This document shows positions 7,627 to 34,614 of a DNA stretch of 57,307 nt, in pieces. The translations under genes and the position numbers were made by a program. Under the pieces are notes generated by a model that saw only the letters and a program-made list of their open reading frames with translations, did not search any database and was not told where the DNA came from. The stretch is from Lachnospiraceae bacterium. GTDB taxonomy: Bacteria; Bacillota; Clostridia; Lachnospirales; Lachnospiraceae. Each line of letters opens with the position of its first letter. Position 1 is the stretch's first letter. The DNA lies in the NCBI GenBank assembly GCA_022768465.1, contig JALELZ010000030.1:1-57307 (forward strand), written 5' to 3'.

Positions 7627-8847
7627 ATGAAAAAAGAAGGAATCAAAAAGATAGTACTTGCTTATTCAGGCGGACTTGACACATCAATTATTATTCCGTG
7701 GCTCAAGGAAAATTATAATAATCCTGAGATCATTGCAGTAGCTGCGGATGTAGGACAGGGAGATGAGCTTGACGGCCTTGAGGAGAAGGCCATCAAGACA
7801 GGCGCTTCAAAGCTTATCATTGCTGATCTTGTAGATGAGATGGTAGATGAAATTATTATCCCTTCACTCAAGATGGATGCAAAATATGAGACATATCTTT
7901 TGGGAACAGCATTTGCTCGTCCGGTAATCGGTAAGAAGCTTGCTGAGATCGCTATAGCAGAGGGCGCTGATGCAATTGCACACGGAGCAACAGGAAAGGG
8001 TAATGATCAGGTTCGTTTTGAGCTTGCTATAAAGAGGTTCGCTCCTGATATGAAGATCATTGCTCCTTGGCGTGAGTGGGATATCAAATCACGTGAGGAA
8101 GAAATTGATTATGCTGAGGCACACAATATTCCGCTTAAGATAAGCCGTGAGACAAATTACTCAAAGGATAAGAATCTTTGGCATTTAAGTCATGAAGGTC
8201 TTGACCTTGAGGATCCTGCAAATGAGCCTCAGTATGAAAAATCAGGCTTCCTTGAGATGGGAGTTTCTCCGATCCAGGCACCTGATGAGCCTGCATATAT
8301 AAGCATTGACTTTGAAGCCGGAGCTCCTGTTGCATTTAACGGCGAGAAGATGAAGGCATCAGACATTATAAGGAAGCTCAATGAGGTCGGTGGTGCTAAC
8401 GGAATCGGCATCATTGATATTGTTGAGAATCGTCTTGTAGGCATGAAGGACCGTGGAGTATACGAGACTCCTGGCGGAACTATTCTTTACAAGGCACATG
8501 AGCAGCTGGAAATGCTTACAGTTGACAAGGAAGTACTTCACGAGAAGCAGAAGCTTGCAGTCGATTATGCAGACCTTATTTACAACGGAAAGTGGTATTC
8601 ACCGCTTCAGGAGGCACTTACAGCATTTGCAAATGAAGCAGATAAGTATGTTACAGGTACAGTAAAGCTTAAGCTCTACAAGGGCAATATCATACCTGCA
8701 GGCACAAGCTCACCATATTCACTTTACTCAGAGAATCTTGTTACATTCGGAGAGAGTGATTACGATCAGGCTCAGGCTGAAGGCTTCATCAATCTTTGGG
8801 GACTTCCTACAAAGGTTCAGGCATATCGTGAGCTTAACAAGCTGTAA
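7627..8847 (+). CDS. argG: Argininosuccinate synthase
   Basis: This 406-aa cytoplasmic enzyme joins citrulline and aspartate with ATP to form argininosuccinate, the penultimate arginine step. The N-terminal PP-loop AYSGGLDTS (residues 13-21) is intact, as are the [13 protein letters not shown] and SYKPGSLYSEN-like ([14 protein letters not shown]) family segments. Length is normal. CCGGAGG lies 9 nt upstream of the ATG. First gene of the arginine cluster, so it should respond directly to the upstream operator. Confidence 0.96.
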
Positions 8848-8931
8848 TCAGTCGGAGCAGGCAAATAAGCATATAATATATTTAATTGATTCGGGAAATT
8901 TGAGTTAACAGAAAGCAAGGAGAATTCAAAC

Positions 8932-10308
8932 ATGGCAAAGATGTGGGCCGGAAGGACTGCCGGAGAGACAGACCAGATAGCGGATGATTTCAATTCATCG
9001 ATACATTTTGACTGCAGAATGTATCAACAGGATATAAACGGCAGTATGGCTCACGCTGCCATGCTTGCAAAAACAGGCATCCTCTCTGATGAGGATGCCG
9101 ATGCCATAATAGACGGACTCGAAGGCATTTTAAAGGATCTTAACAGCGGAAAATTAGAGTTTGATTTAAGCTGTGAAGACATTCACATGTTTATTGAGCA
9201 GGTGCTTACCGAAAGGCTCGGAGATGTCGGAAAGAAGCTTCACACGGCAAGAAGCAGAAATGATCAGGTCGCGCTTGATTTAAGAATGTATTTAAGAGAT
9301 GAGGCAACGGAGATAAGCTCACTTGTAAGAGAGCTTACAGAAACACTTGTAGCTGTAGCTGAGAAAAATATGGGAGTTGTAATGCCGGGCTATACTCATC
9401 TTCAGAGGGCTCAGCCGATACTTTTCTCACATCATATGATGGCCTATGTCATGATGCTTTTAAGGGATCGTGACAGGATAGCGGATGCAGTAAAGAGGAT
9501 GAATGTATCACCTATCGGAAGCTGTGCGCTGGCAGGAACCACATATAATACGGACAGAATATTTGAGGCTGAGAAGCTGGGATTTCATTCCATAGCGTGG
9601 AACAGCCTTGACGGTGTTTCGGACAGGGATTTCTGTGTTGAGCTAATGAGTGCCATTGCAATACTAATGATGCATCTTTCGAGATTTTCGGAGGAGATAG
9701 TACTGTGGTCAAGCTGGGAATTTAAGTTTATAGAGCTTTCAGACAGCTACACTACAGGCTCCTCAATAATGCCTCAAAAGAAGAATCCGGATATGGCGGA
9801 GCTTATCAGAGGAAAAACAGGCAGAGTCTACGGCGATCTTATGGCACTGCTCACTACACTTAAGGGTCTTCCGCTTGCATATAACAAGGACATGCAGGAG
9901 GATAAGGAGGCAGTCTTTGATTCAGTGGATACCGTTAAGGTATGCTTAAAGGTCATGATACCTATGATAGCTACAATGAAGACACTTCCTGACAACATGA
10001 GAAAGGCAGCAAACGAGGGCTTTATAAATGCTACCGATCTTGCAGATTATCTTGTAAAGAAGGGAATGCCTTTCAGAACTGCCTATAAGATATCGGGACA
10101 GATAGTCTCAGAATGTATAGGAAAGGGTCTTGTACTTGAAACCTTCCCTATCGAGGAATACAAAAAGCACAGCGAGCTTTTTGATAATGACGTATATAAT
10201 GACATTAATATAGAAAATTGCGTTGAAAAACGCATATCAGCAGGCGGAACCTCATCTGCATCGGTTAAAGAAGAGATCGAGCTTGTGAAAAAGGAGCTTG
10301 AAAAATGA
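8932..10308 (+). CDS. argH: Argininosuccinate lyase
   Basis: This 458-aa enzyme of the fumarase/aspartase superfamily splits argininosuccinate into arginine and fumarate. The family signature GSSIMPQKKNPD (around residue 279), the HTARSRNDQVALD segment and the TGSS catalytic serine loop are present. AGGAG lies just upstream of ATG 8932. Its stop overlaps the argC start (ATGA), so the two are coupled. Length is normal. Confidence 0.96.
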   Translation: MAKMWAGRTAGETDQIADDFNSSIHFDCRMYQQDINGSMAHAAMLAKTGILSDEDADAIIDGLEGILKDLNSGKLEFDLSCEDIHMFIEQVLTERLGDVGKKLHTARSRNDQVALDLRMYLRDEATEISSLVRELTETLVAVAEKNMGVVMPGYTHLQRAQPILFSHHMMAYVMMLLRDRDRIADAVKRMNVSPIGSCALAGTTYNTDRIFEAEKLGFHSIAWNSLDGVSDRDFCVELMSAIAILMMHLSRFSEEIVLWSSWEFKFIELSDSYTTGSSIMPQKKNPDMAELIRGKTGRVYGDLMALLTTLKGLPLAYNKDMQEDKEAVFDSVDTVKVCLKVMIPMIATMKTLPDNMRKAANEGFINATDLADYLVKKGMPFRTAYKISGQIVSECIGKGLVLETFPIEEYKKHSELFDNDVYNDINIENCVEKRISAGGTSSASVKEEIELVKKELEK

Positions 10309-11228
10309 CAAGGATCTTTATAGACGGAAGTGCCGGAACGACAGGCTTAAGGATATATGAGAGGCTGTCGGAAAGAAAAGATATAGAGCTGATAATACTT
10401 CCGGATGACAAGAGAAAAGATGAGGCCTCAATAAAAGAGGCACTGCATGAGGCGGATATAGCATTTTTATGTCTGCCGGATGCAGCCGCTGCAGAGGCAG
10501 TCAGGCTTGCAAAGGACTCAAAGGTTACGATAATTGACACCTCGACGGCGCACAGAACTGCAGAAGGCTGGACCTACGGATTTCCTGAGATAGGAAGCTT
10601 AAGAGAACAGATTGCTTCATCAAAAAGAATAGCAAACCCGGGATGTCATGCGAGCGGATTTATTGTTTTGGTTGAACCTCTTGTTGAAGCAGGCATAATC
10701 TCCAGGGAGACAGCGCTTTCGTGCATATCACTTACCGGATACTCGGGCGGCGGAAAAAAGATGATCGCCGACTATGAAGCAGCAGACCGAGATAAGCTGC
10801 TTGACGCTCCGAGAGTTTACGGTATCGGACAGCAGCACAAGCATCTTAAAGAAATGAAGCATATCTGCGGACTTTATGAAGAGCCTGCATTTTATCCTAT
10901 AGTTGCTGATTTTTATTCAGGAATGGAGACTAATATTTCGCTTTTCAAAAAGGATATTAAGGGAAGCATTGAAGATATCCGTGCTATATATAAAGCAAAA
11001 TACAGCGGAAAAATAGTTCATTATGAGGACAATGTAGATGACGGAGGCTTTATCTCCGCTGCAAAGCTTTCAGGCAGAGATGATATGATAGTCAGCGTTG
11101 CCGGAAATGAGGATCGAATGACACTGATTGCGCTTTTTGATAATTTAGGAAAGGGCGCATCCGGAGCAGCAATACAGAACATGAATATAGTTATGGGAAT
11201 TGATGAGGCAATAGGCCTTTCAATCTGA
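10305..11228 (+). CDS. argC: N-acetyl-gamma-glutamyl-phosphate reductase (short, type 2)
   Basis: This 307-aa NADPH-dependent reductase converts N-acetylglutamyl phosphate to the semialdehyde. The N-terminal Rossmann motif FIDGSAGTTGLRI and the catalytic cysteine in NPGCHASG (C114) are present. At about 310 residues it belongs to the short type of ArgC, not the 340-residue type 1. It overlaps argH by 4 nt. A 114-nt gap to argJ contains no obvious gene. Confidence 0.94.
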   Translation: MTRIFIDGSAGTTGLRIYERLSERKDIELIILPDDKRKDEASIKEALHEADIAFLCLPDAAAAEAVRLAKDSKVTIIDTSTAHRTAEGWTYGFPEIGSLREQIASSKRIANPGCHASGFIVLVEPLVEAGIISRETALSCISLTGYSGGGKKMIADYEAADRDKLLDAPRVYGIGQQHKHLKEMKHICGLYEEPAFYPIVADFYSGMETNISLFKKDIKGSIEDIRAIYKAKYSGKIVHYEDNVDDGGFISAAKLSGRDDMIVSVAGNEDRMTLIALFDNLGKGASGAAIQNMNIVMGIDEAIGLSI

Positions 11229-11342
11229 CATATTCTCAGAAAGTAAACGGCTGATTTTAAAGCATAATACAAAAGCAGTGTTTCCGGTCTTATTTCAAAG
11301 AAGCACTAAGGACAGGGCATTGATAAAGGGGGAGCAAAAATT

Positions 11343-12557
11343 ATGAAAATGATAAAGGGCGGCGTATGTGCCGCAAAGGGATATAAGGCAAACGGAATTC
11401 ACTGCGGTATTCGTCACAATACTACAAAGAAAGATCTTGCAATGATCTTAAGCGAGGTTCCAGCAAGCGCAGCCGGAGTTTATACTACAAATCTTGTAAA
11501 AGGAGCTCCTATATATGTCACAAAAAAGCATCTTGAGAACGGCACGGCACAGGCCGTCATAGTAAACAGCGGAAATGCCAATACCTGTAATGCTGACGGT
11601 ATTGAAATAGCTGAAAAGATGTGTGCGCTTACAGGCGGTGTGCTCGGAATAGATCCGCATGATATAATAGTAGCATCAACAGGAGTGATCGGTCAGCCGC
11701 TCGACATTACACCTATAGAAAATGGTATTGAAGAGCTTGCAAAAGGACTTTCTGAAAATGGCAATGAGGCTGCGGCAGCAGGCATTATGACTACTGATAC
11801 CATCATGAAAGAGGCTGCTGTTGAGTTTGAACTTGGAGGAAAGATCTGTCATATCGGGGCTATGGGTAAAGGCAGCGGAATGATACATCCGAACATGGCT
11901 ACCATGCTGGTATTTATCACTACAGATGCTGCGGTGAGCCCTGCGCTTCTTGATAAGGCGCTTAAGACAGACGTTCAAAAGAGCTTCAATATGGTTTCTG
12001 TAGACGGTGATACTTCAACGAATGATACGGTAACCATTATGGCAAACGGCCTTGCAGGAAATGCAATCATTACTGAAGAAAATGATGATTATAAGGTGTT
12101 CATGAAGGCTCTCAACACAGTTACAGTGGCGCTTTGCCGAATGATCGCCGGAGACGGTGAAGGTGCAACCAAGTTTCTTGAGTGCTGCACAAGCGGAGCA
12201 AAAAGCTATGAGACGGCAAAAATCGTTGCAAAAAGCGTGATATGTTCATCACTTTTGAAGGCAGCTATGTTCGGTGCCGATGCCAACTGGGGACGTGTGC
12301 TCTGTGCTATAGGCTATTCAGGAGCAGATGTTGATGTAACAAAGATCGATGTGTCATTTAAATCTCCGAAGGGAGAGATCCTTGTATGCAAGGACGGAGC
12401 CGGAGTTGCATTTTCAGAGGAAAAGGCAAAGGAAATATTGCTGGAAAAGGATATTCAGATATTGGTTGAGCTTAATGACGGTGAATTTAGTGCTGAGGCC
12501 TGGGGCTGCGATCTGACATATGATTATGTCAAGATAAACGGAGATTACAGGAGCTGA
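11343..12557 (+). CDS. argJ: Bifunctional glutamate N-acetyltransferase / ornithine acetyltransferase
   Basis: This 404-aa enzyme transfers the acetyl group from N-acetylornithine to glutamate, so the pathway recycles acetate and needs neither ArgA nor ArgE. It is made as a precursor that cleaves itself before the nucleophilic threonine; the site HPNMATML with T187 is intact. GGGGGAG is placed 8 nt upstream of the chosen ATG; a second ATG two codons on is possible. Whether it can also use acetyl-CoA is typical of bifunctional forms but not provable here. Confidence 0.95.
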   Translation: MKMIKGGVCAAKGYKANGIHCGIRHNTTKKDLAMILSEVPASAAGVYTTNLVKGAPIYVTKKHLENGTAQAVIVNSGNANTCNADGIEIAEKMCALTGGVLGIDPHDIIVASTGVIGQPLDITPIENGIEELAKGLSENGNEAAAAGIMTTDTIMKEAAVEFELGGKICHIGAMGKGSGMIHPNMATMLVFITTDAAVSPALLDKALKTDVQKSFNMVSVDGDTSTNDTVTIMANGLAGNAIITEENDDYKVFMKALNTVTVALCRMIAGDGEGATKFLECCTSGAKSYETAKIVAKSVICSSLLKAAMFGADANWGRVLCAIGYSGADVDVTKIDVSFKSPKGEILVCKDGAGVAFSEEKAKEILLEKDIQILVELNDGEFSAEAWGCDLTYDYVKINGDYRS

Positions 12558-12592
12558 TTAGATAAGGATAAGACACAGGGAGAGACATTATT

Positions 12593-13462
12593 ATGGAAGG
12601 GGCACTTACAAATATTCAAAGGGCCGAGGTGCTTGCAAAGGCGCTTCCGTACATCAAAAAATATAATAATAAGATCGTTGTTATTAAATATGGCGGCAAT
12701 GCTATGATAAGCAATGAGCTTAAAGAGCAGGTTATGGAAGACATAGTTCTCCTGTGGCTTATCGGAGTCAAGGTCGTGCTTGTGCACGGAGGCGGCCCCG
12801 AGATCAATGAAATGCTTGGTAAAATCGGCAAAAAATCCGAATTTGTCGGAGGCTTAAGGGTTACCGATAAGGAAACTATCGAGATTGCAGAGATGGTGCT
12901 TGCCGGCAAGGTTAATAAGGGACTTGTTAATCTTCTTGAGGTTAAGGGCGGCAATGCAATGGGTATATCCGGCATGGACGGAAGGCTTATTGAGGCAAAG
13001 ATCAAGAATGAACAGCTAGGCTATGTCGGAGAGATAACCTCTATTAATAAAAAGCCTATCCTGGATCTTCTTTCAAACGGATATATTCCGGTAGTTTCTA
13101 CGATAGGCTGTGATAAGGACGGGAATATCTTTAACATTAACGGAGACACAGCTGCTGCTTATATAGCCGGAGCGCTTCAGGCAGAAAGACTTATCATGAT
13201 GACGGATATTGCAGGCATCATGAGAGATCAGTATGATCCTAAGTCTCTGATACCTGAACTCAGCACTGAGGAGGCAGTACAGCTGTATGATAAGGGCGTC
13301 ATCTCAGGCGGTATGATACCTAAGGTGGATTCCTGCATAAAGGCTATAGAAATGGGTGTTCAGAACTGTGTTATCATGAACGGCTGCTTACCGCATTCTA
13401 TACTGATAGAGCTTCTTACAGAGGAAGGCGCAGGAACTATGATAACGGCGCATAATAAATGA
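12593..13462 (+). CDS. argB: Acetylglutamate kinase
   Basis: This 289-aa amino-acid kinase phosphorylates N-acetylglutamate, usually the arginine-feedback step. Present are the nucleotide-binding KYGGNAM, substrate loop LVHGGGPEIN and the C-terminal KVDSCIKAI segment. The N-terminal helix (RAEVLAKALPYIKKY, residues 10-24) is the extension linked in arginine-sensitive hexameric kinases to feedback inhibition, so this enzyme is probably arginine regulated. It lies 35 nt after argJ and 15 nt before argD. Confidence 0.95.
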   Translation: MEGALTNIQRAEVLAKALPYIKKYNNKIVVIKYGGNAMISNELKEQVMEDIVLLWLIGVKVVLVHGGGPEINEMLGKIGKKSEFVGGLRVTDKETIEIAEMVLAGKVNKGLVNLLEVKGGNAMGISGMDGRLIEAKIKNEQLGYVGEITSINKKPILDLLSNGYIPVVSTIGCDKDGNIFNINGDTAAAYIAGALQAERLIMMTDIAGIMRDQYDPKSLIPELSTEEAVQLYDKGVISGGMIPKVDSCIKAIEMGVQNCVIMNGCLPHSILIELLTEEGAGTMITAHNK

Positions 13463-13477
13463 TCATGAGGAATTAAG

Positions 13478-14638
13478 ATGAATATAATTGAGACAGATAA
13501 GCAGTATATTGCAAATACATATAAGCGTTTCCCGGTTTGTCTTGTAAATGGACACGGTTCGGAAGTTTATGATGAAAACGGAAAACGTTATATAGATATG
13601 GGCTCCGGCATAGGAGTCACGGCCTTCGGCATTGCAGACGAAAAATGGCAGCAGGCTGTAACAGATCAGTTAGGCAAGATTCAGCATTCTTCAAACCTTT
13701 ACTATACGGAGCCTGATGCAATGCTTGCAAAGCTTCTTTGTGAAAAATCAGGCATGGATAAGGTGTTCTATGCAAATTCCGGAGCAGAGGCTAATGAAAA
13801 CGGCATAAAGGCTGTGAGAAAATATGCCGCAGAGCATAAGGGAAGTGATTATTATACTATAATCACACTTGAAAACAGCTTCCACGGCCGTACGCTCACG
13901 ACACTTGCCGCTACAGGTCAGGAGGTATTCCACAAGCAGTTCACACCGCTTACACCCGGCTTTGTATCAGTACCTGCCAATGATATTGAGGCTATGAAAA
14001 ATGCCGTAAAGGCTCACAAGACTGCAGGCATTATGATAGAATGCATACAGGGAGAGGGCGGAGTCAAGGCACTGGATTATGATTATGTAAAGGCTATTGA
14101 GAAGCTTTGCGAGGAGGAGGATCTTGTACTCCTTTGTGATGAAGTCCAGAGCGGAAACGGCAGAAGCGGATACATGTATTCATATATGCACTACGGCATT
14201 CATCCGGATGTTGTTACGACCGCTAAGGGATTAGGCGGAGGACTGCCTATAGGTGCATGTCTGCTCGGAGGAAAGGCCGGAAACATTTTCAGTTACGGTG
14301 ATCTTGGTTCAACCTTCGGCGGAAACCCTGTTGTATGTGCAGGAGCCTTAAGCATTCTTGAAAGAATAGACGAAGGCCTTCTTAAGGAGGTTAAAGAAAA
14401 GAGTGATTATCTTTTTGAAGTGTTCGGAAAGGCAAAGGGCATAAAGAAGGTTTCGGGAATGGGACTTATGATCGGTCTTGAAACAAAAAAGCCTGCGGGA
14501 GAAATCGTCAATGCGCTCATCGCCAAGGGTGTGCTTTGCCTTACAGCAAAGGATAAGGTCCGTCTCCTTCCGGCGCTTAATATTCCTATGGATGTTTTGA
14601 AAGAGGCAGCAGAGCTTATTATTGCAGAGTGCGAATAA
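13478..14638 (+). CDS. argD: Acetylornithine aminotransferase
   Basis: This 386-aa class III PLP aminotransferase converts N-acetylglutamate semialdehyde to N-acetylornithine. The PLP lysine is K250 in TTAKGLGGGLP; the phosphate loop YANSGAEANE and the FHGRTL segment are intact. GAGGAAT precedes ATG. Such enzymes often also act in lysine synthesis on succinyl-diaminopimelate, which is relevant to the DapF domain further down the same cluster. Confidence 0.95.
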   Translation: MNIIETDKQYIANTYKRFPVCLVNGHGSEVYDENGKRYIDMGSGIGVTAFGIADEKWQQAVTDQLGKIQHSSNLYYTEPDAMLAKLLCEKSGMDKVFYANSGAEANENGIKAVRKYAAEHKGSDYYTIITLENSFHGRTLTTLAATGQEVFHKQFTPLTPGFVSVPANDIEAMKNAVKAHKTAGIMIECIQGEGGVKALDYDYVKAIEKLCEEEDLVLLCDEVQSGNGRSGYMYSYMHYGIHPDVVTTAKGLGGGLPIGACLLGGKAGNIFSYGDLGSTFGGNPVVCAGALSILERIDEGLLKEVKEKSDYLFEVFGKAKGIKKVSGMGLMIGLETKKPAGEIVNALIAKGVLCLTAKDKVRLLPALNIPMDVLKEAAELIIAECE

Positions 14639-14758
14639 GCCTAAAAAATGATCGTTTGGCAGCCTGACATGATAACAACAGTAACAGGCTGTGCCGGATC
14701 ACAATTAAAAGGTTTCAGTGAAATTCAGAAACAAGCGACAATAAAGGAGGAACCACAA

Positions 14759-15766
14759 ATGGCTCTTATAATGATGGGCAATGAATTCAAGGGCAGAAGC
14801 TTTTTAAAGCTCCTTGATTTTAAGCCTGATGAAATCACACAGCTTCTGGATCTTGCGGCAGAGCTCAAGGATCGGAAAAAGAGACATGAATCACATAAGG
14901 TATTTGCAGGCAGAAACATTGCTCTTATTTTTGAAAAGACATCTACCAGGACACGATGCTCCTTTGAGGTTGCCGCTGCGGATCTCGGCATTCATCCGGT
15001 ATATCTTGATCCTAAGAGCTCGCAGATAGGAAAGAAGGAATCTATTGCTGATACTGCAAGAGTACTCGGAAGAATGTTCGATGGAATAGAATACAGAGGC
15101 TTTGCTCAGGAAAGAGTTGAGGAACTTGCAAAATATTCCGGAGTACCTGTATGGAACGGTCTTACCAATGAATCACATCCTACACAGATACTTGCAGATT
15201 TCCTTACGATCAGAGAACATTTCGGAAGATTAAAGGGAATCAAGTTTGTATATATGGGCGATGCCAGATACAATATGGGCAACTCACTTATGGTGGGCTG
15301 TGCTCTTATGGGAATGCAGTTTACTGCATGCGCTCCGAAGAAATATTTCCCTGAGGCTGATCTCATTGCAAAATGTGAGGAAATAGCAAAGGAAACAGGA
15401 GCTGTATTGAGCTTTGATGAAGACCCTATGAATGCCACAAAGGGAGCCGATGTTGTCTACACAGATGTCTGGGTATCTATGGGAGAGCCTGATGAGATAT
15501 GGACAGAGCGTATAAATGATCTTATGCCTTATCAGGTAAATCAGAAGATAATGGATAACGCAGGACCACAGTGCAGATTCATGCATTGTCTGCCGGCATT
15601 CCATGATCTGGAAACAGAGATCGGAGAAGAAATCAGTGAAAAATTCGGCATAGATGCTATAGAGGTCACTGATGAGGTTTTTGAGGGACCGCAGTCAATA
15701 GTCTTCGACGAGGCTGAAAATCGCATGCATACGATCAAGGCTGTTATTGCAGCTACTATGCTTTGA
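14759..15766 (+). CDS. argF: Ornithine carbamoyltransferase
   Basis: This 335-aa enzyme makes citrulline from ornithine and carbamoyl phosphate. The carbamoyl phosphate loop STRTR (residues 62-66) and the ornithine-specific HCLPA (H276-A280) are both present. I start at ATG 14759, which has AAAGGAGG 9 nt upstream. The frame is open back to an earlier ATG at 14648, but that N-terminal extension does not look like the family and has no ribosome binding site. Its substrate carbamoyl phosphate comes from the next two genes. Confidence 0.95.
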
Positions 15767-15961: not shown

Positions 15962-17032
15962 ATGGAAAAGGCATATCTTGTTTTAAGCAACGGAAAAATA
16001 TTTGAAGGAACCCGCATAGGAGCCGATATCGACTCTGTTGGTGAAATTGTTTTTACGACCGGTATGGAAGGATATCTTGAGACTCTCACGGATCCTAGCT
16101 ACGCCGGTCAAATTATTACCCAGACATTTCCTCTTATCGGAAACTATGGTGTAATAGAAGAAGACTTTGAGGGAGGAATATTTGCAAGGGGCTATATTGT
16201 CAGAGAGCTTTGCGATGAGCCTTCTAATTTCAGATGTCAATATCCTCTTGAGAAATTGCTGAAGGATCATAACATTCCGGGTATTGCAGGCATAGACACC
16301 AGAGAGCTCACAAGAATAATTCGTGAAGAGGGTGTTATGAATGCCAAGATCTGCAGTTCTGTACCGGAGGATCTTTCAGAGATCAAAAATTACTGCATAA
16401 CAGGCGCTGTTGATGAAGTTGGCATAAAGGATGTTGAGATATATCCTGCAGAAGGCGAAGCCAAGTATAATGTTACTCTTATCGATTACGGAGCTAAACA
16501 CAATATACTTCGCTGTCTTCAAAAGCGTGGCTGCACAGTTACAGCAGTTCCGCATACATTTACAGCCGAGCAGATCCTTGAAGGAAATCCTGACGGAATA
16601 ATGTTGGGAAACGGCCCGGGAGATCCTGCTGAGAATACCTTCTGTATAGAGCAGATAAAGAAGCTTATCGGCAAGGTTCCTATATTTGGAATCTGTCTCG
16701 GTCATCAGCTTGCAGCACTTGCTATGGGCGGAGAGACAGTTAAGCTTAAGTACGGACATCACGGTGCAAATCAGCCTGTAAAGATGGCTGACGGAAGCCG
16801 CACATATATAACAAGTCAGAACCATAACTATGCAGTAGTTGCGGAAAGCCTTAAGGGCAAGGGTGTTGAGATACTTACAAATGCCAATGACAACAGCTGC
16901 GAGGGTATGGAATATACAGGAAAGAACTGTTTTACTGTTCAGTTCCATCCTGAAGCCTGCGGAGGCCCTAAGGATACGGAGTTTCTGTTCAACAGGTTTA
17001 TCGATATGATGGGAGGAAAGGAAAATGCCTAA
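15962..17032 (+). CDS. carA: Carbamoyl-phosphate synthase small (glutaminase) subunit
   Basis: This 356-aa subunit releases ammonia from glutamine and passes it to CarB. The class I amidotransferase motif FGICLGHQ carries nucleophile C245; the histidine of QFHPE is present. The N-terminal CPSase_sm_chain domain fills residues 1-130. GAGAGAAGG lies before ATG. Its 3' end overlaps the start of carB by 8 nt, giving translational coupling for an equimolar complex. Confidence 0.95.
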   Translation: MEKAYLVLSNGKIFEGTRIGADIDSVGEIVFTTGMEGYLETLTDPSYAGQIITQTFPLIGNYGVIEEDFEGGIFARGYIVRELCDEPSNFRCQYPLEKLLKDHNIPGIAGIDTRELTRIIREEGVMNAKICSSVPEDLSEIKNYCITGAVDEVGIKDVEIYPAEGEAKYNVTLIDYGAKHNILRCLQKRGCTVTAVPHTFTAEQILEGNPDGIMLGNGPGDPAENTFCIEQIKKLIGKVPIFGICLGHQLAALAMGGETVKLKYGHHGANQPVKMADGSRTYITSQNHNYAVVAESLKGKGVEILTNANDNSCEGMEYTGKNCFTVQFHPEACGGPKDTEFLFNRFIDMMGGKENA

Positions 17033-20000
17033 GGATACAAGTATTAAAAAGGTCCTGATGATAGGTTCAGGCCCGATAGTTATCGGACAGGCAGCAGAGT
17101 TTGACTATGCAGGAGCACAGGCCTGCCGCGTACTCAAGGACGAAGGCATCAATGTCGTACTTGTAAACTCTAATCCTGCCACAATTATGACAGATAAGGA
17201 TCTGGCTGATGAGATCTATCTTGAGCCGCTTAACGCAGAGACAGTAGAGCGTATTATAGCAAAGGAAAGACCTGACGGACTTTTAGCCGGACTCGGCGGT
17301 CAGACAGGACTTACTATAGCTATGCAGCTTAAGAAAAACGGAGTACTGGATAAGTACAATGTCAGACTCTTAGGCTCACCTGTAGAGGCTATAGATAAGG
17401 CTGAAGACAGAGAGCTCTTTAAGGAGACTATGGAGGCAATAGGCCAGCCTGTAGTTCCTTCAGAAATCGCAAATACAGTAGAAGAGGCTATCGCTGTTGC
17501 GAATAAGATCAGCTATCCGGTAATCGTTCGTCCGGCCTTCACATTGGGAGGAAGCGGCGGCGGTATCGCAAATGATGAGGAAGAGCTCAGAGTCATTGCA
17601 AAGAGCGGACTTGATATGTCTCCTATCACACAGATACTTGTTGAGCGCTGCATCTCAGGCTGGAAGGAAATCGAGTTTGAGACAATGAGAGATGCTCTCG
17701 GAAATGCAATCACTATCTGTTCAATGGAAAACTTTGACCCTGTCGGAGTTCATACCGGAGACTCTATAGTAGTTGCACCTGCACTCACTCTTTCAGATAA
17801 AGAATATCAGATGCTTCGTACAGCATCATTGGAAATGATCTCCGCACTCGGAATCGTTGGCGGCTGTAACTGCCAGTTTGCACTTAACCCTAACAGCTTC
17901 GAGTATGCTGTTATCGAGGTTGACCCGAGAGTATCCAGATCATCTGCACTTGCTTCAAAGGCAACAGGCTATCCTATTGCAAAGATAACAACAAAGATAG
18001 CACTCGGATATACACTTGACGAGATCGTTAATGATATTACCAAAAAGACCTGTGCATGCTTCGAGCCTGCAATTGACTATGTAGTTGTTAAGTTCCCGAA
18101 GTGGCCGTTTGATAAATTCGCCGGATCCTCAAGAACCGTAGGTACTCAGATGAAGGCTACCGGTGAGGTCATGGCTATTGCCAACAGCTTTGAGATGGCT
18201 CTTATGAAGGCTGTAAGAGGAGCTGAGATCGGAGCTGATACACTCAACCTTCCGCCGCTTTCAGATAAGCCGGTAATGGAGAGAGTTGCAGAGCAGAACG
18301 ACAGACGTCTGTTCTCTATCTTCGAGGCATTAAAGGCCGGACATACTGTTGATGAGATCCATGAAATAACAAAGATAGACCGCTGGTTCTTAAATAAGGT
18401 AAGAAAGATCGCTGAGTATGAAATGTATATAAGCAATCTCAATACCGATACTATGTCTAAGGAAGACTATGAGCACGGAAAGAAGCTCGGATATACAGAT
18501 GCGGCTCTTTCACGCATAAGCGGCGTTGCTAAGGACAAAATGCCTCACAGACATTTCAGCTATAAGATGGTAGATACATGTGCATCTGAGTTTGATGCAG
18601 AGACACCGTATTTCTATTCGACCTGCGATGATGCATGTGAGTCAAGAAGCTTTAAGAGAAGCGGCAAGGACGTTGTTATAGTATTAGGCTCAGGTCCTAT
18701 CCGTATCGGACAGGGTATTGAGTTTGACTATTCGTCTGTTCATTGCGTGTGGACACTCAGAAAGCTCGGATATGATGTTGTTATCATAAATAATAACCCT
18801 GAGACAGTATCAACAGACTATGATACAGCTGACAGACTGTACTTCGAGGCTCTTACACCTGAGGATGTTATGAACATCATCGAGATTGAGAAGCCTATCG
18901 GAGTAGTTGTAGCCTTTGGCGGACAGACAGCTATCAAGCTTACAAATTTCCTTGATCAGCAGGGCATACAGATACTCGGAACCTCTGCTGAGGGTATTGA
19001 CGTGGCTGAGGACAGAGCTAAGTTCGATGCGTTGCTGGAGCAGTTCGGAATATCAAGACCTAAGGGCTTTGGTGTAAGCACTATAGAGGAAGCGGTTAAG
19101 GCTGCAGATACACTCGGATACCCGGTACTCCTAAGACCAAGCTATGTTATCGGTGGTCAGAACATGACTATATCACACGATGACGAGCATACAATAAAGT
19201 ACATGAAGAATATCCTTGCAGGAGGAATTGACAATCCTGTACTTGTAGATAAGTACATGCAGGGACCTGAGCTTGAGGTAGATGTTATTTCCGATGGTGA
19301 GAACGTACTTATCCCGGGAATCATGGAGCACGTAGAGAGAGCCGGAGTACATTCAGGAGACTCTATAGCTGTATATCCGCCATACAACCTCACAGATAAA
19401 TTCCTTGAGATCATCTGTGACAGCTCAGAGAAACTTGCTCTTGCACTCGGAACAAAAGGACTTGTAAATATTCAGTACCTTATCTATCACGATAAGCTTT
19501 ATGTTATCGAGGTTAACCCGAGAGCTTCACGTACAATTCCTTATATAAGCAAGGTTACAAATGTTCCTATGGTTGATCTTGCTACCAAGGTAATGCTCGG
19601 AGCAAAGCTTAAGGATTTAGGCTACGGCACCGGACTTTACAGAACACCGCCTTACTGTGCAGTTAAGGTACCTGTGTTCTCATTCGAAAAGCTCAATGAT
19701 GCAAACTCAATATTAGGACCTGAGATGAAGTCAACAGGAGAGGTACTTGGTCTCGGAAAGACCCTCTCAGAGGCTCTTTACAAGGGACTTACAGCCGCAG
19801 GCTTCACAGTACCTCCAACAGACTCAGAGAACACACCGGGCGTACTCATTTCTGTAGATAATACAGATTATGAAGAGGTGCTTTCTGTAGCAAAGCGTTT
19901 CTATGATCTTCGCATGGACCTTTATGCTACAACCGGAACTGCTGATGCTATAAGCAAGCTTGGCATTCCTGTAACAAGCGTTGAAAATGCGACCGAGAGC

Positions 20001-21092
20001 CCTGAGATCTATGATCTTATGGAAGCCGGAAAGCTTAGCTATATCATTTATACAGGAGCTGCTCTTGATGAAACAACAAGGGCATATATCAAGCTTCACA
20101 GAAAGGCAATGCAGTTAGGCATCCCATGCATCACGAGCCTTGATACAGCCGGTGCTCTTGCAGAGATGATAGAGAGTCGCTTCAACATTAACAATACTGA
20201 GCTCGTAGATATCAACAATATGAGACATGAGCACAGCCATGTTAAGTTTACGAAGATGCATTCCTGCGGAAATGACTACATTTTCATTGAAAACTTTGAC
20301 AGTAAGATAACCTGTCCTGAGTCACTTTGCGTAAACCTCTGCGCACCTCATTATGGCATAGGTGCGGATGGTATCGTTCTTATCGAGCATTCCGACAAGG
20401 AAGGTGCAGATGCAAAGATGCGTACCTTCAACAAGGATGGTTCGGAAGGAAAAATGGCAGGAAACAACATCCGCTGTGTTGCAAAGTACCTTTATGACAA
20501 CGGCTTTATCGAAAAGGACAGATATTTTGTAAATATCGAGATAGCAGGAAATGTTCATAAGCTTAAGCTCTATACCAGAGACGGCAAGGTAAGCTCAGTT
20601 TCAGTAGACATGGGCAAGGTAAGCTTTATGGCGAAGGATATACCGGCTATTACAGATGATCCTACAACTAATATCATAAATCAGCCGCTCAAGGTTATCG
20701 GTGAAGAATTCATGGTAACCTGCCTTTCAATAGGCAATCCGCATTGCGTAACCTTTGGTGAAGGGCTTGATAAGCTCTGGCTTGAGAAGATCGGACCTGA
20801 GTTCGAACATCATCCGATGTTCCCTGAGAGAATAAATACAGAGTTTGTAAGACCTGTAAACCGCAATACTCTTCGTATGAGAGTCTGGGAAAGAGGAAAC
20901 GGGGAGACCCTTGCCTGCGGTACCGGAGCATGTGCGGCAGTTGCGGCAGCAGTTGTTAACGGACTTTGTGATAAGGGCTCTGATGTAACAGTTAAGCTGC
21001 TCGGAGGAGATCTTGTTGTAAACTACACAGATGAAAAGGTAACTCTGACAGGAGCTGTAACAACAGTATTCAACGGAGAATTCGAATATTAA
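17025..21092 (+). CDS. carB: Carbamoyl-phosphate synthase large subunit fused to a diaminopimelate-epimerase-like domain
   Basis: One uninterrupted frame of 1355 codons holds two proteins. Residues 1 to about 1063 are a complete CarB: first ATP-grasp half (MIGSGPIVIGQ near 13), second half from about residue 546 (LGSGPIRIGQG), and the MGS-like regulatory domain from about 935. From residue 1072 to 1355 it is DapF-like: TKMHSCGNDYIF, GIGADGIVLI, SIGNPHC, ERGNGE and ACGTGACA. C1298 matches the second catalytic cysteine of DapF. The first (Cys73 in Haemophilus DapF, motif CGNG) is Ala1145 here (AGNN). The linker is only about 9 residues. An in-frame ATG at 20220 (residue 1066) has no ribosome binding site. 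CarB function is near certain; epimerase activity of the tail is doubtful. Confidence 0.93.
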   Translation: MPKDTSIKKVLMIGSGPIVIGQAAEFDYAGAQACRVLKDEGINVVLVNSNPATIMTDKDLADEIYLEPLNAETVERIIAKERPDGLLAGLGGQTGLTIAMQLKKNGVLDKYNVRLLGSPVEAIDKAEDRELFKETMEAIGQPVVPSEIANTVEEAIAVANKISYPVIVRPAFTLGGSGGGIANDEEELRVIAKSGLDMSPITQILVERCISGWKEIEFETMRDALGNAITICSMENFDPVGVHTGDSIVVAPALTLSDKEYQMLRTASLEMISALGIVGGCNCQFALNPNSFEYAVIEVDPRVSRSSALASKATGYPIAKITTKIALGYTLDEIVNDITKKTCACFEPAIDYVVVKFPKWPFDKFAGSSRTVGTQMKATGEVMAIANSFEMALMKAVRGAEIGADTLNLPPLSDKPVMERVAEQNDRRLFSIFEALKAGHTVDEIHEITKIDRWFLNKVRKIAEYEMYISNLNTDTMSKEDYEHGKKLGYTDAALSRISGVAKDKMPHRHFSYKMVDTCASEFDAETPYFYSTCDDACESRSFKRSGKDVVIVLGSGPIRIGQGIEFDYSSVHCVWTLRKLGYDVVIINNNPETVSTDYDTADRLYFEALTPEDVMNIIEIEKPIGVVVAFGGQTAIKLTNFLDQQGIQILGTSAEGIDVAEDRAKFDALLEQFGISRPKGFGVSTIEEAVKAADTLGYPVLLRPSYVIGGQNMTISHDDEHTIKYMKNILAGGIDNPVLVDKYMQGPELEVDVISDGENVLIPGIMEHVERAGVHSGDSIAVYPPYNLTDKFLEIICDSSEKLALALGTKGLVNIQYLIYHDKLYVIEVNPRASRTIPYISKVTNVPMVDLATKVMLGAKLKDLGYGTGLYRTPPYCAVKVPVFSFEKLNDANSILGPEMKSTGEVLGLGKTLSEALYKGLTAAGFTVPPTDSENTPGVLISVDNTDYEEVLSVAKRFYDLRMDLYATTGTADAISKLGIPVTSVENATESPEIYDLMEAGKLSYIIYTGAALDETTRAYIKLHRKAMQLGIPCITSLDTAGALAEMIESRFNINNTELVDINNMRHEHSHVKFTKMHSCGNDYIFIENFDSKITCPESLCVNLCAPHYGIGADGIVLIEHSDKEGADAKMRTFNKDGSEGKMAGNNIRCVAKYLYDNGFIEKDRYFVNIEIAGNVHKLKLYTRDGKVSSVSVDMGKVSFMAKDIPAITDDPTTNIINQPLKVIGEEFMVTCLSIGNPHCVTFGEGLDKLWLEKIGPEFEHHPMFPERINTEFVRPVNRNTLRMRVWERGNGETLACGTGACAAVAAAVVNGLCDKGSDVTVKLLGGDLVVNYTDEKVTLTGAVTTVFNGEFEY

Positions 21093-33537: not shown

Positions 33538-33594
33538 AACGATCAATAACCTATGATTACTTCATACAATCATAATTTTGATCGTTATTTTTTT
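33538..33594 (+). terminator. Terminator or attenuator abutting the next gene's ribosome binding site
   Basis: An 8-bp perfect stem (33538-33545 with 33579-33586) holds an inner 6-bp stem (33553-33558 with 33568-33573) and is followed by ATTTTTTT. The AGGAGG of the next gene starts at 33598, only four bases after the T run. Confidence 0.8.
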
Positions 33595-33610
33595 ACAGGA
33601 GGAAATAAAA

Positions 33611-34342
33611 ATGGCATCGAAGAAAAAAGGAGTTATTGTATTAAAGAAAAACAATAAGTTGAAAGTAACTTATTCACATCGTAATTCTGAAATGAGACTT
33701 GTCGGAAAACGTACCGTTAAGTGGATAAGATCAGCCGGCGTTGATGCCATAAGTGATTATTATGATAAAGTAATCATGGTAAAAGAAGAAGAGCCGATGA
33801 CAGAAGAGCAGAAGGAAACCTACAAAAAATACATTCCTGAGCAGCTCTGGCCTGAAATAGAAAACATGACCTGGCAGGAGGCATTGGCATGGACAAAGGA
33901 TGCAGTATCACCTCTCAAGGACTTCTATCCGTATATGGTAGATTACTCCGGATTTGTAGGAGCATGGGCAAACCGCTGGAGATACATCATTGATCTTGAT
34001 AATAATCAGTTTATAGTAGTAAGAGCCGGACTTGAAATGCTTCTATTCGATTCATGCGATACATATCCGCCGGAGTACGATTGGATGGGTAAAGTTGCAC
34101 ATACAGAAATAGGACGCTTCCCGCTCGACAACATCCCTGAGGACTGGATCGAACAGTGTGATAAATACTGGAAGAGCCTTATGATCATAGCAGTAGACTA
34201 CAGCCATAACAAAGAAGCCATGGATTCCGAGCATGTACAGGAAATGGGAGTTAACGGCTATAATCCGGCAGATTCAGATTGGGAAAAAATAAAATTCTAC
34301 TACGGCCAGAACAGCTACAACAAAATGATCACAGACATGTGA
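33611..34342 (+). CDS. Hypothetical protein, family not recognised
   Basis: This 243-aa soluble protein has a basic, Lys-rich start (residues 1-20), a KRTVKWIRSAGVD segment, an acidic stretch (around 55-65) and an aromatic-rich middle (WQEALAW, WANRWRYIIDL, YPPEYDWMGKV). There is no signal peptide and no membrane helix. I do not recognise a domain. I start at ATG 33611 with AGGAGG 7 nt upstream; the frame is open a few codons further back through the terminator, which is not credible coding. No promoter fits between terminator and gene, so expression must come from readthrough. A 12-bp hairpin follows it. Confidence 0.75.
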   Translation: MASKKKGVIVLKKNNKLKVTYSHRNSEMRLVGKRTVKWIRSAGVDAISDYYDKVIMVKEEEPMTEEQKETYKKYIPEQLWPEIENMTWQEALAWTKDAVSPLKDFYPYMVDYSGFVGAWANRWRYIIDLDNNQFIVVRAGLEMLLFDSCDTYPPEYDWMGKVAHTEIGRFPLDNIPEDWIEQCDKYWKSLMIIAVDYSHNKEAMDSEHVQEMGVNGYNPADSDWEKIKFYYGQNSYNKMITDM

Positions 34343-34356
34343 AAATAATTCTAGAT

Positions 34357-34404
34357 AATAGGCTCTCGGAAGCGACTGTTTATAGATGCTGACGAGAGCC
34401 TATT
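34357..34404 (+). terminator. Perfect 12-bp hairpin after the hypothetical gene
   Basis: AATAGGCTCTCG (34357-34368) pairs with 34393-34404. There is no T tract, so the terminator function is uncertain; it may protect the 3' end. Confidence 0.55.
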
Positions 34405-34411
34405 AGATAGA

Positions 34412-34614
34412 TAAACACGCATGAGCAAAAAAGCACGAAGTGCGATTTGCGAATGCGTGTTTACGGGGAGCGGGAGTGCGAAGCACGCAGCTACCCGGAT
34501 TATTTTAAATAAACTAAGAAAGGCTAGCAGAGCAAAAAAGCACGAAGTGCGTTATGCGAATGCGTGTTTACGGGGAGCGAGAGTGCGAAGCACGAAGCTA
34601 CCCGGATTATTTTT
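34412..34614. repeat. Tandem pair of structured ~84-nt repeats
   Basis: Copies at 34423-34506 and 34530-34614 start 107 nt apart and are near identical, with changes at about six positions. Each contains mini-hairpins GCAC-GAA-GTGC and GTGC-GAA-GCAC. The second sits inside a larger CGGGNAGC/GCTACCCG stem followed by GGATTATTTT. Before copy 1, TAAACACGCAT (34412-34422) is a perfect complement of ATGCGTGTTTA inside both copies. It resembles a REP/BIME-like or small-RNA element. The open frame through it is not a convincing gene. Confidence 0.75.

Follow-up and report, generated by a model that had tools for sequence, protein, structure and literature searches.

Carbamoyl-phosphate synthase is found fused to other enzymes in CAD and in the fungal CPS II-ATCase-DHO chains, where the partners come from the same pathway, and the fungal DHO domain can be inactive (PMC6022934). 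For E. coli CarB, Thr977 and Lys993 were reported to matter for the effects of UMP (PMC6245113). The catalysis of DapF (TIGR00652; PDB 9mro, 2otn, 1bwz) depends on a thiol-thiolate pair of cysteines (PMC12039745), and the substrate contacts of H. influenzae DapF (HiDapF) are named in PMC8225329. The DapF fold has been reused for other roles, i.e., in PddB, HisR, CntK and the O-ureido-serine racemase 7vdy. Both PddB and HisR need two cysteines: single-cysteine mutants are reported to be nearly inactive for PddB and greatly reduced for HisR, and the distal contacts are changed in PddB (PMC8225329, PMC11602996).

The window, i.e., the whole stretch of 57,307 nucleotides from a Lachnospiraceae bacterium that was analysed here, carries a gene in which CarB and DapF are joined in a single frame. 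Its first part resembles bacterial CarB (TIGR01369) in being full-length by profile, in having an MGS domain and in following carA directly in an arginine operon, but it differs in its 284-residue DapF tail and in the change of the residues equivalent to E. coli K954, K993, N1015, T1017 and R1020. The tail is a full-length DapF domain with the second catalytic cysteine and the reported DAP contacts kept; unlike in DapF, the first catalytic cysteine is an alanine and the domain is fused to CarB. In contrast to CAD and the fungal chains, CarB is joined here to a partner from the lysine and cell-wall branch, and no ATCase or DHO domain was found on the chain with 11 Pfam families and 25 of the 45 NCBIfam families listed. 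Compared with PddB and HisR the fusion does the reverse, since it gives up one cysteine and keeps the distal contacts.

The carB::dapF gene and its locus

The features of the locus are as follows.
7627..15766, + strand: arginine genes argG, argH, argC, argJ, argB, argD and argF, upstream of carA
15962..17032, + strand: carA, its 3′ end overlapping the carB start by 8 bases
17025..21092, + strand: carB::dapF fusion gene, one ATG-to-TAA frame of 1355 codons
17025..20201, + strand: CarB part, residues 1-1059 (TIGR01369)
19878..20135, + strand: MGS-like allosteric domain, residues 952-1037 (Pfam PF02142)
20193..20237, + strand: conserved linker NTELVDINNMR..., residues 1057-1071
20238..21089, + strand: DapF domain, residues 1072-1355 (TIGR00652; PDB 9mro; structure model)
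20457..20459, + strand: GCA codon of Ala1145, at the place of HiDapF Cys73 (C73), the first catalytic cysteine
20916..20918, + strand: TGC codon of Cys1298, which corresponds to HiDapF Cys217 (C217), the second catalytic cysteine

The stretch 17025-21092 is a genuine CarB-DapF fusion in one frame. In the NCBIfam profile search TIGR01369 matched residues 2-1048 with 1420.1 bits (cut-off 1027) and TIGR00652 matched residues 1074-1353 with 259.8 bits (cut-off 114.65; profile positions 2-268 of 270), Pfam agreed with NCBIfam on both parts, and the DapF domain aligned to the PDB DapF 9mro with an E value of 7.9e-73; the reading of a CarB and a full-length DapF domain in one 1355-residue frame, proposed in an earlier note on this DNA, is thus borne out. 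That note had also considered a missing or miscalled base hiding a stop codon. Among 25 genomes of the genus, 5 have the full-length frame (residues 1-1355, no stop), i.e., the window's own genome and four more in which the identity is 78-87%, and the same intact frame in these and in other fusions excludes a missed stop or frameshift; the linker consensus NTELVDINxMR is also kept across the fusions. A separate DapF made from an internal start was considered as well and rejected for the window, as no Shine-Dalgarno-like match was found upstream of its internal Met1066. Among 54 fusions, the longest such match at any near-joint internal start candidate was 0 bases in 31, 3 in 18, 4 in 4 and 5 in 1, so that 23 of the 54 show a match of 3-5 bases at some candidate, and in these an internal start is conceivable. 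The structure model of MGS and DapF reached a mean pLDDT of 89.2 and a pTM of 0.71, with a linker pLDDT of about 57-64, and because of this pTM and the weak linker values the relative placing of the two domains is too uncertain for use.

The gene order is argG-argH-argC-argJ-argB-argD-argF-carA-carB::dapF, where argB, which matched no family under the strict threshold applied, was named by reading. Of 44 named loci, 11 have ArgF upstream, 10 of them with carA in between and L133 without it, and all 11 belong to the window's clade; the upstream flanks of these 44 loci are shorter than 3 kb, and the absence of ArgF elsewhere means little. The genome of the window is 96% complete and one full CarB was found in it. 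Further along the window, a Clostridiales-1 RNA (RF01699, 87.7 bits) lies at 34343-34505, directly after a 254-codon frame (33578-34342).

Distribution and origin of the fusion

The CarB-DapF architecture is not rare in the class sampled. In the family search the long frame was present in at least 6 of 397 genomes (G000, which is the window's own, G220, G401, G126, G061 and G254, the frame of the last running off the contig end). A contig scan with fused DapF domains gave 44 in-frame fusions among the best 80 of 590 confirmed places, including that of an isolate, Ruminococcus sp. FC2018 (L129). Class-wide, a frame of at least 644 aa around the match was counted, by eye and by frame length alone among the matches listed, in at least 56 of the 391 genomes sampled, with 28 family codes; the 35 of these 56 that were fetched all carry the DapF domain behind at least 360 in-frame residues. 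Altogether 91 distinct fusions were collected, composed of a first set of 54 and 39 further ones, two of which repeat L148 and L129. The earlier note knew of no described CarB-DapF enzyme, and this holds for the open-licence literature searched, which mostly misses subscription journals. A bifunctional CarB-DapF appears widespread in Clostridia yet absent from that literature, and database entries probably list such proteins simply as CarB.

In the CarB tree a single group contains 49 fusions and one unfused row (G305), and on the DapF tree 54 fusions lie on one starred branch together with L132, which is truncated at a contig edge, and L165, whose frame is short or broken. As far as these sequences can tell, a single origin of the fusion fits. 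The unfused row comes from a relative within the window's clade (L065, contig C18), where the CarB frame ends at 9552, just past the linker motif NTELVDIN, and the DapF part has been lost; no DapF-like stretch was found in the forward frames of the remaining 140 bases of that contig. The adjacent carB-dapF pairs of G317 and G318 were considered as direct precursors of the fusion and rejected, since their DapFs and CarBs branch elsewhere on both trees.

Several neighbouring arrangements are worth recording. At L066 and L067 (G317 and G318) carB is followed by a stand-alone two-cysteine dapF, which represents an independent adjacency. One genome holds two carB::dapF fusions (L257, on G420 C7, and L115), one of them followed by a stand-alone dapF and dapL. 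The non-fused DapFs of L140 and L161, from records named Psychrobacillus, lie close to the fusions on the DapF tree, and a transfer is possible.

Catalytic cysteines and the retained site

The main point, overlooked by the earlier note, is the loss of the first catalytic cysteine. The DapF domain of the window has only one residue of the catalytic pair, the first cysteine being replaced by A1145 and the second kept as C1298. In the first 54 fusions the C73 position is occupied by A in 23, C in 20, G in 7, S in 3 and F in 1, and the C217 position by C in all 54; the 39 further fused domains have C (19), A (16), G (2) or S (2) at the former position and C (37), N (1) or S (1) at the latter. Of the 91 distinct fusions, 54 lack C73 (A 39, G 9, S 5, F 1) and 2 lack C217. 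The latter two are also without C73, so that C217 is kept in 52 of the 54 C73-lost domains. All 99 non-fused rows, which represent 94 distinct genes, have C at both positions; L132 was set apart, a row with G at the first position that is truncated at a contig edge and falls among the fusions. A stand-alone DapF subfamily without C73 is not represented among these 99 rows (94 distinct), a sample chosen by similarity. On an 86-row tree, which leaves out 5 fusions with fewer than 600 residues before DapF, C73 changes at least 11 times (8 of them forced by starred branches) and C217 twice, within the window's all-C73-lost clade of 40. Such counts give no direction, and the C73 changes are read as losses because the non-fused rows keep both cysteines.

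The rest of the site is largely kept. The DAP-contact residues N11, N64, N157, N190, E208 (which we take to be a contact) and R209 are all present in the window, as N1083, N1136, N1238, N1271, E1289 and R1290, respectively. Among the 34 C73-lost domains of the first 54, N157, N190, R209 and G218 are found in 34, N64 and N75 in 33, G74 in 32 and N11 in 25 (D in 8, A in 1), while T219 is T in 32 or S in 2. Six of 11 contact columns, with E208 and C217 included, belong to the 42 invariant ones of 290 (hypergeometric p 0.0017, ancestry ignored). Another measure was based on 38 columns that are nearly invariant in 119 two-cysteine rows, split at residue 1200 by our own choice: in the 18 columns before this residue 74 of 612 cells deviate, 34 being C73 itself, and the N-terminal half of the site is thus seen to drift, with 40 of 578 non-C73 cells deviating vs. 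6 of 678 in the 20 columns beyond. Individual domains have gone further: L255 lost N157, N190, E208, R209 and the second cysteine, i.e., most of the site, L256 lost both cysteines, L254 has R209V and L265 has R78M.

The dN/dS of the DapF part was 0.067, 0.126, 0.074, 0.080, 0.086 and 0.247 in C73-lost pairs (6 computable of seven), and CarB gave 0.033-0.052 and 0.165 in those seven; C73-intact pairs gave 0.046, 0.040 and 0.065 (3 computable of four), with CarB at 0.025-0.078. These ratios come from a simple count, with synonymous differences near saturation in most pairs, and they are rough. Judged by sequence comparison of this kind, the one-cysteine tail of the window is under purifying selection. 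The DapF part changes at 1.5-2.4 times the rate of CarB in C73-lost pairs and at 0.8-1.8 times in three C73-intact pairs, and its faster change in the former implies a somewhat relaxed constraint. Repeated loss of one cysteine in an otherwise retained site provides a natural series that leads from a bifunctional enzyme to a candidate sensor, and a DapF profile match here need not mean an epimerase.

Meso-DAP routes and the role of the tail

Fusions are present in 55 genomes (L132/G437 counted), 20 with C73 and 35 without it. Routes were sought by TIGR03542 (DapL), TIGR01921 and, in 19 genomes, TIGR03532; DapD_Ac was sought in 19 of the 55 genomes, G437 not among them. Another DapF besides the fusion was detected in 4 of the 20 genomes with C73 vs. 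23 of the 35 without, and 16 of the 20 showed no DapF other than the fusion. An LL-DAP route, meaning DapL by TIGR03542 or, in the genomes where it was sought, DapD_Ac, was found together with the fusion as only DapF in 14 of 20 genomes with C73 and in 2 of 35 without it, a contrast with a Fisher value of 8e-7 when ancestry is uncorrected; counted as independent pairs on the tree, the contrast is at best 3 to 0 and not significant. Among the 12 C73-lost genomes without another DapF, Ddh is present in 8, and for 7 of these no LL-DAP route was found, the eighth (G446) having both Ddh and an LL-DAP route. G401 has an LL-DAP route, with no Ddh and no other DapF found, and in G436, G445 and G447 the profiles sought detected no other DapF, LL-DAP route or Ddh.

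On the same strand and within about 200 bases after the fusion, dapL was found in 7 of the 20 genomes with C73 (G434, G435, G440, G441, G443, G450, G464) and in 0 of the 35 without it, and among these 35 C73-lost genomes there are 8 in which it is so placed next to the stand-alone dapF (G220, G420, G421, G425, G429, G430, G452, G463). The order is carA, carB::dapF, dapL in Ruminococcus sp. FC2018; carB::dapF (Ala), dapF (Cys), dapL in G420; carB::dapF (Cys), dapF in G449, with dapL further along the same contig; and carB::dapF (Ser), pyrG, dapL in G061, pyrG being near the fusion also in G126 and L178. In G428 (C3:57149-58986, - strand) a stand-alone dapF directly adjoins ddh.

The genome of the window encodes one stand-alone two-cysteine DapF (198.1 bits; G000 C19, L003 865-1824, - strand), which rules out the fusion as its sole DapF and which presumably makes meso-DAP. 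This protein has D at N157, an insert in that loop and a long branch on the DapF tree. It is of a divergent type (MCGNGARCICRY, GDPGIPH loop) that is common to genus members, and its substrate specificity may differ. DapD_Ac was found in this genome, and no DapL by TIGR03542 and no Ddh; the stand-alone dapF that the earlier note had suggested looking for is therefore there, and the alternative, ddh, was not found. The coupling of two pathways put forward in that note, read as a bifunctional enzyme, is not supported for the window gene, with its one catalytic cysteine and the separate DapF in the genome, but it fits the both-cysteine form, which is the only DapF detected in 16 of 20 genomes and stands directly before dapL in 7.

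In the light of the mutant data on PddB and HisR (PMC8225329, PMC11602996), the tail of the window is very probably no longer an epimerase of DAP. Its role on CarB is then most likely ligand-sensing or structural, and a sensor or scaffold tail, named as an alternative in the earlier note, seems the best remaining idea; sensing is suggested by the retention of the site and the changes in the MGS domain. We propose an explanation with a bifunctional ancestor, repeated loss of the base and a tail that in the window acts as a ligand-binding adjuster of CarB, and give it, taken as a whole, an even chance. The ancestral fusion would have formed in a carA-carB-dapF-dapL neighbourhood and would have combined the large chain of carbamoyl-phosphate synthase with a working DAP epimerase. 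The epimerase base may have been lost repeatedly where another DapF or the Ddh route covers meso-DAP. In the window's lineage, with its arginine operon, the tail would no longer epimerise DAP and would still bind DAP or a similar diamino acid, and by closing on this ligand it could adjust CarB via the neighbouring MGS domain, whose nucleotide-site residues are changed in the clade. Binding of a diamino acid with adjustment of CarB is the least certain step, and a scaffold role is its nearest alternative.

A scaffold or an outgoing relic, which would aid the folding, dimerisation or stability of CarB with no ligand, agrees with the loss of the DapF part in G305, with the decay of the site in L255 and L256, and with the faster change of the DapF part and the drift of the N-terminal half of its site. 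There is also a precedent in fungal CPS II, fused to ATCase and to an active or inactive DHO (PMC6022934). However, C217 in 52 of 54 C73-lost domains and the distal contacts in nearly all are more than a scaffold needs, and with dN/dS mostly at 0.07-0.13 we regard this role as conceivable but rather unlikely. The same conservation, persisting though C73 changed at least 11 times, could also mark an enzyme with a new single-base reaction, e.g., elimination or exchange on DAP or a related amino acid; yet the differing replacements (A, G, S, F) speak against one defined chemistry, no new conserved acid or base was noticed at the C73 position and there is no candidate substrate, which makes such an enzyme improbable.

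Continued DAP epimerisation by the domain, at low activity or with another residue as base, would be in line with its nearly complete active site, with a DapF profile score well over the cut-off and with G401 and G446, which lost C73 and have an LL-DAP route with no other DapF found. Against it stand the two-cysteine nature of the catalytic pair (PMC12039745), the activity of the relatives' single mutants, reported as nearly abolished or greatly reduced, and the separate two-cysteine DapF in the window's genome, and we consider it very unlikely. An assembly or sequencing error, for which nothing beyond the oddity of the architecture speaks, has a negligible chance, since the joint recurs in 5 of 25 genus genomes and across 91 distinct fusions that come from many assemblies.

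The ligand-binding adjuster can be taken one step further, to a tail that would be a DAP-sensing allosteric module replacing nucleotide control in the window's clade, whereby carbamoyl-phosphate supply would answer to the cell-wall precursor DAP; in this full form the idea is doubtful. The window has Y, N, Y, G and D at the MGS positions of E. coli K954, K993, N1015, T1017 and R1020, and these positions are mostly changed throughout the clade of 40, where K at the K993 position is found in 8 of 40 vs. 46 of 46 other fusions. The clade keeps T974 (39/40), T977 (39/40) and T1042 (40/40); apart from Thr977 and Lys993, these positions are ones that we take to belong to the nucleotide site. Change of the nucleotide motif was rejected as a general cause of C73 loss, since the other C73-lost clades keep the motif, and the two changes coincide only in the window's clade.
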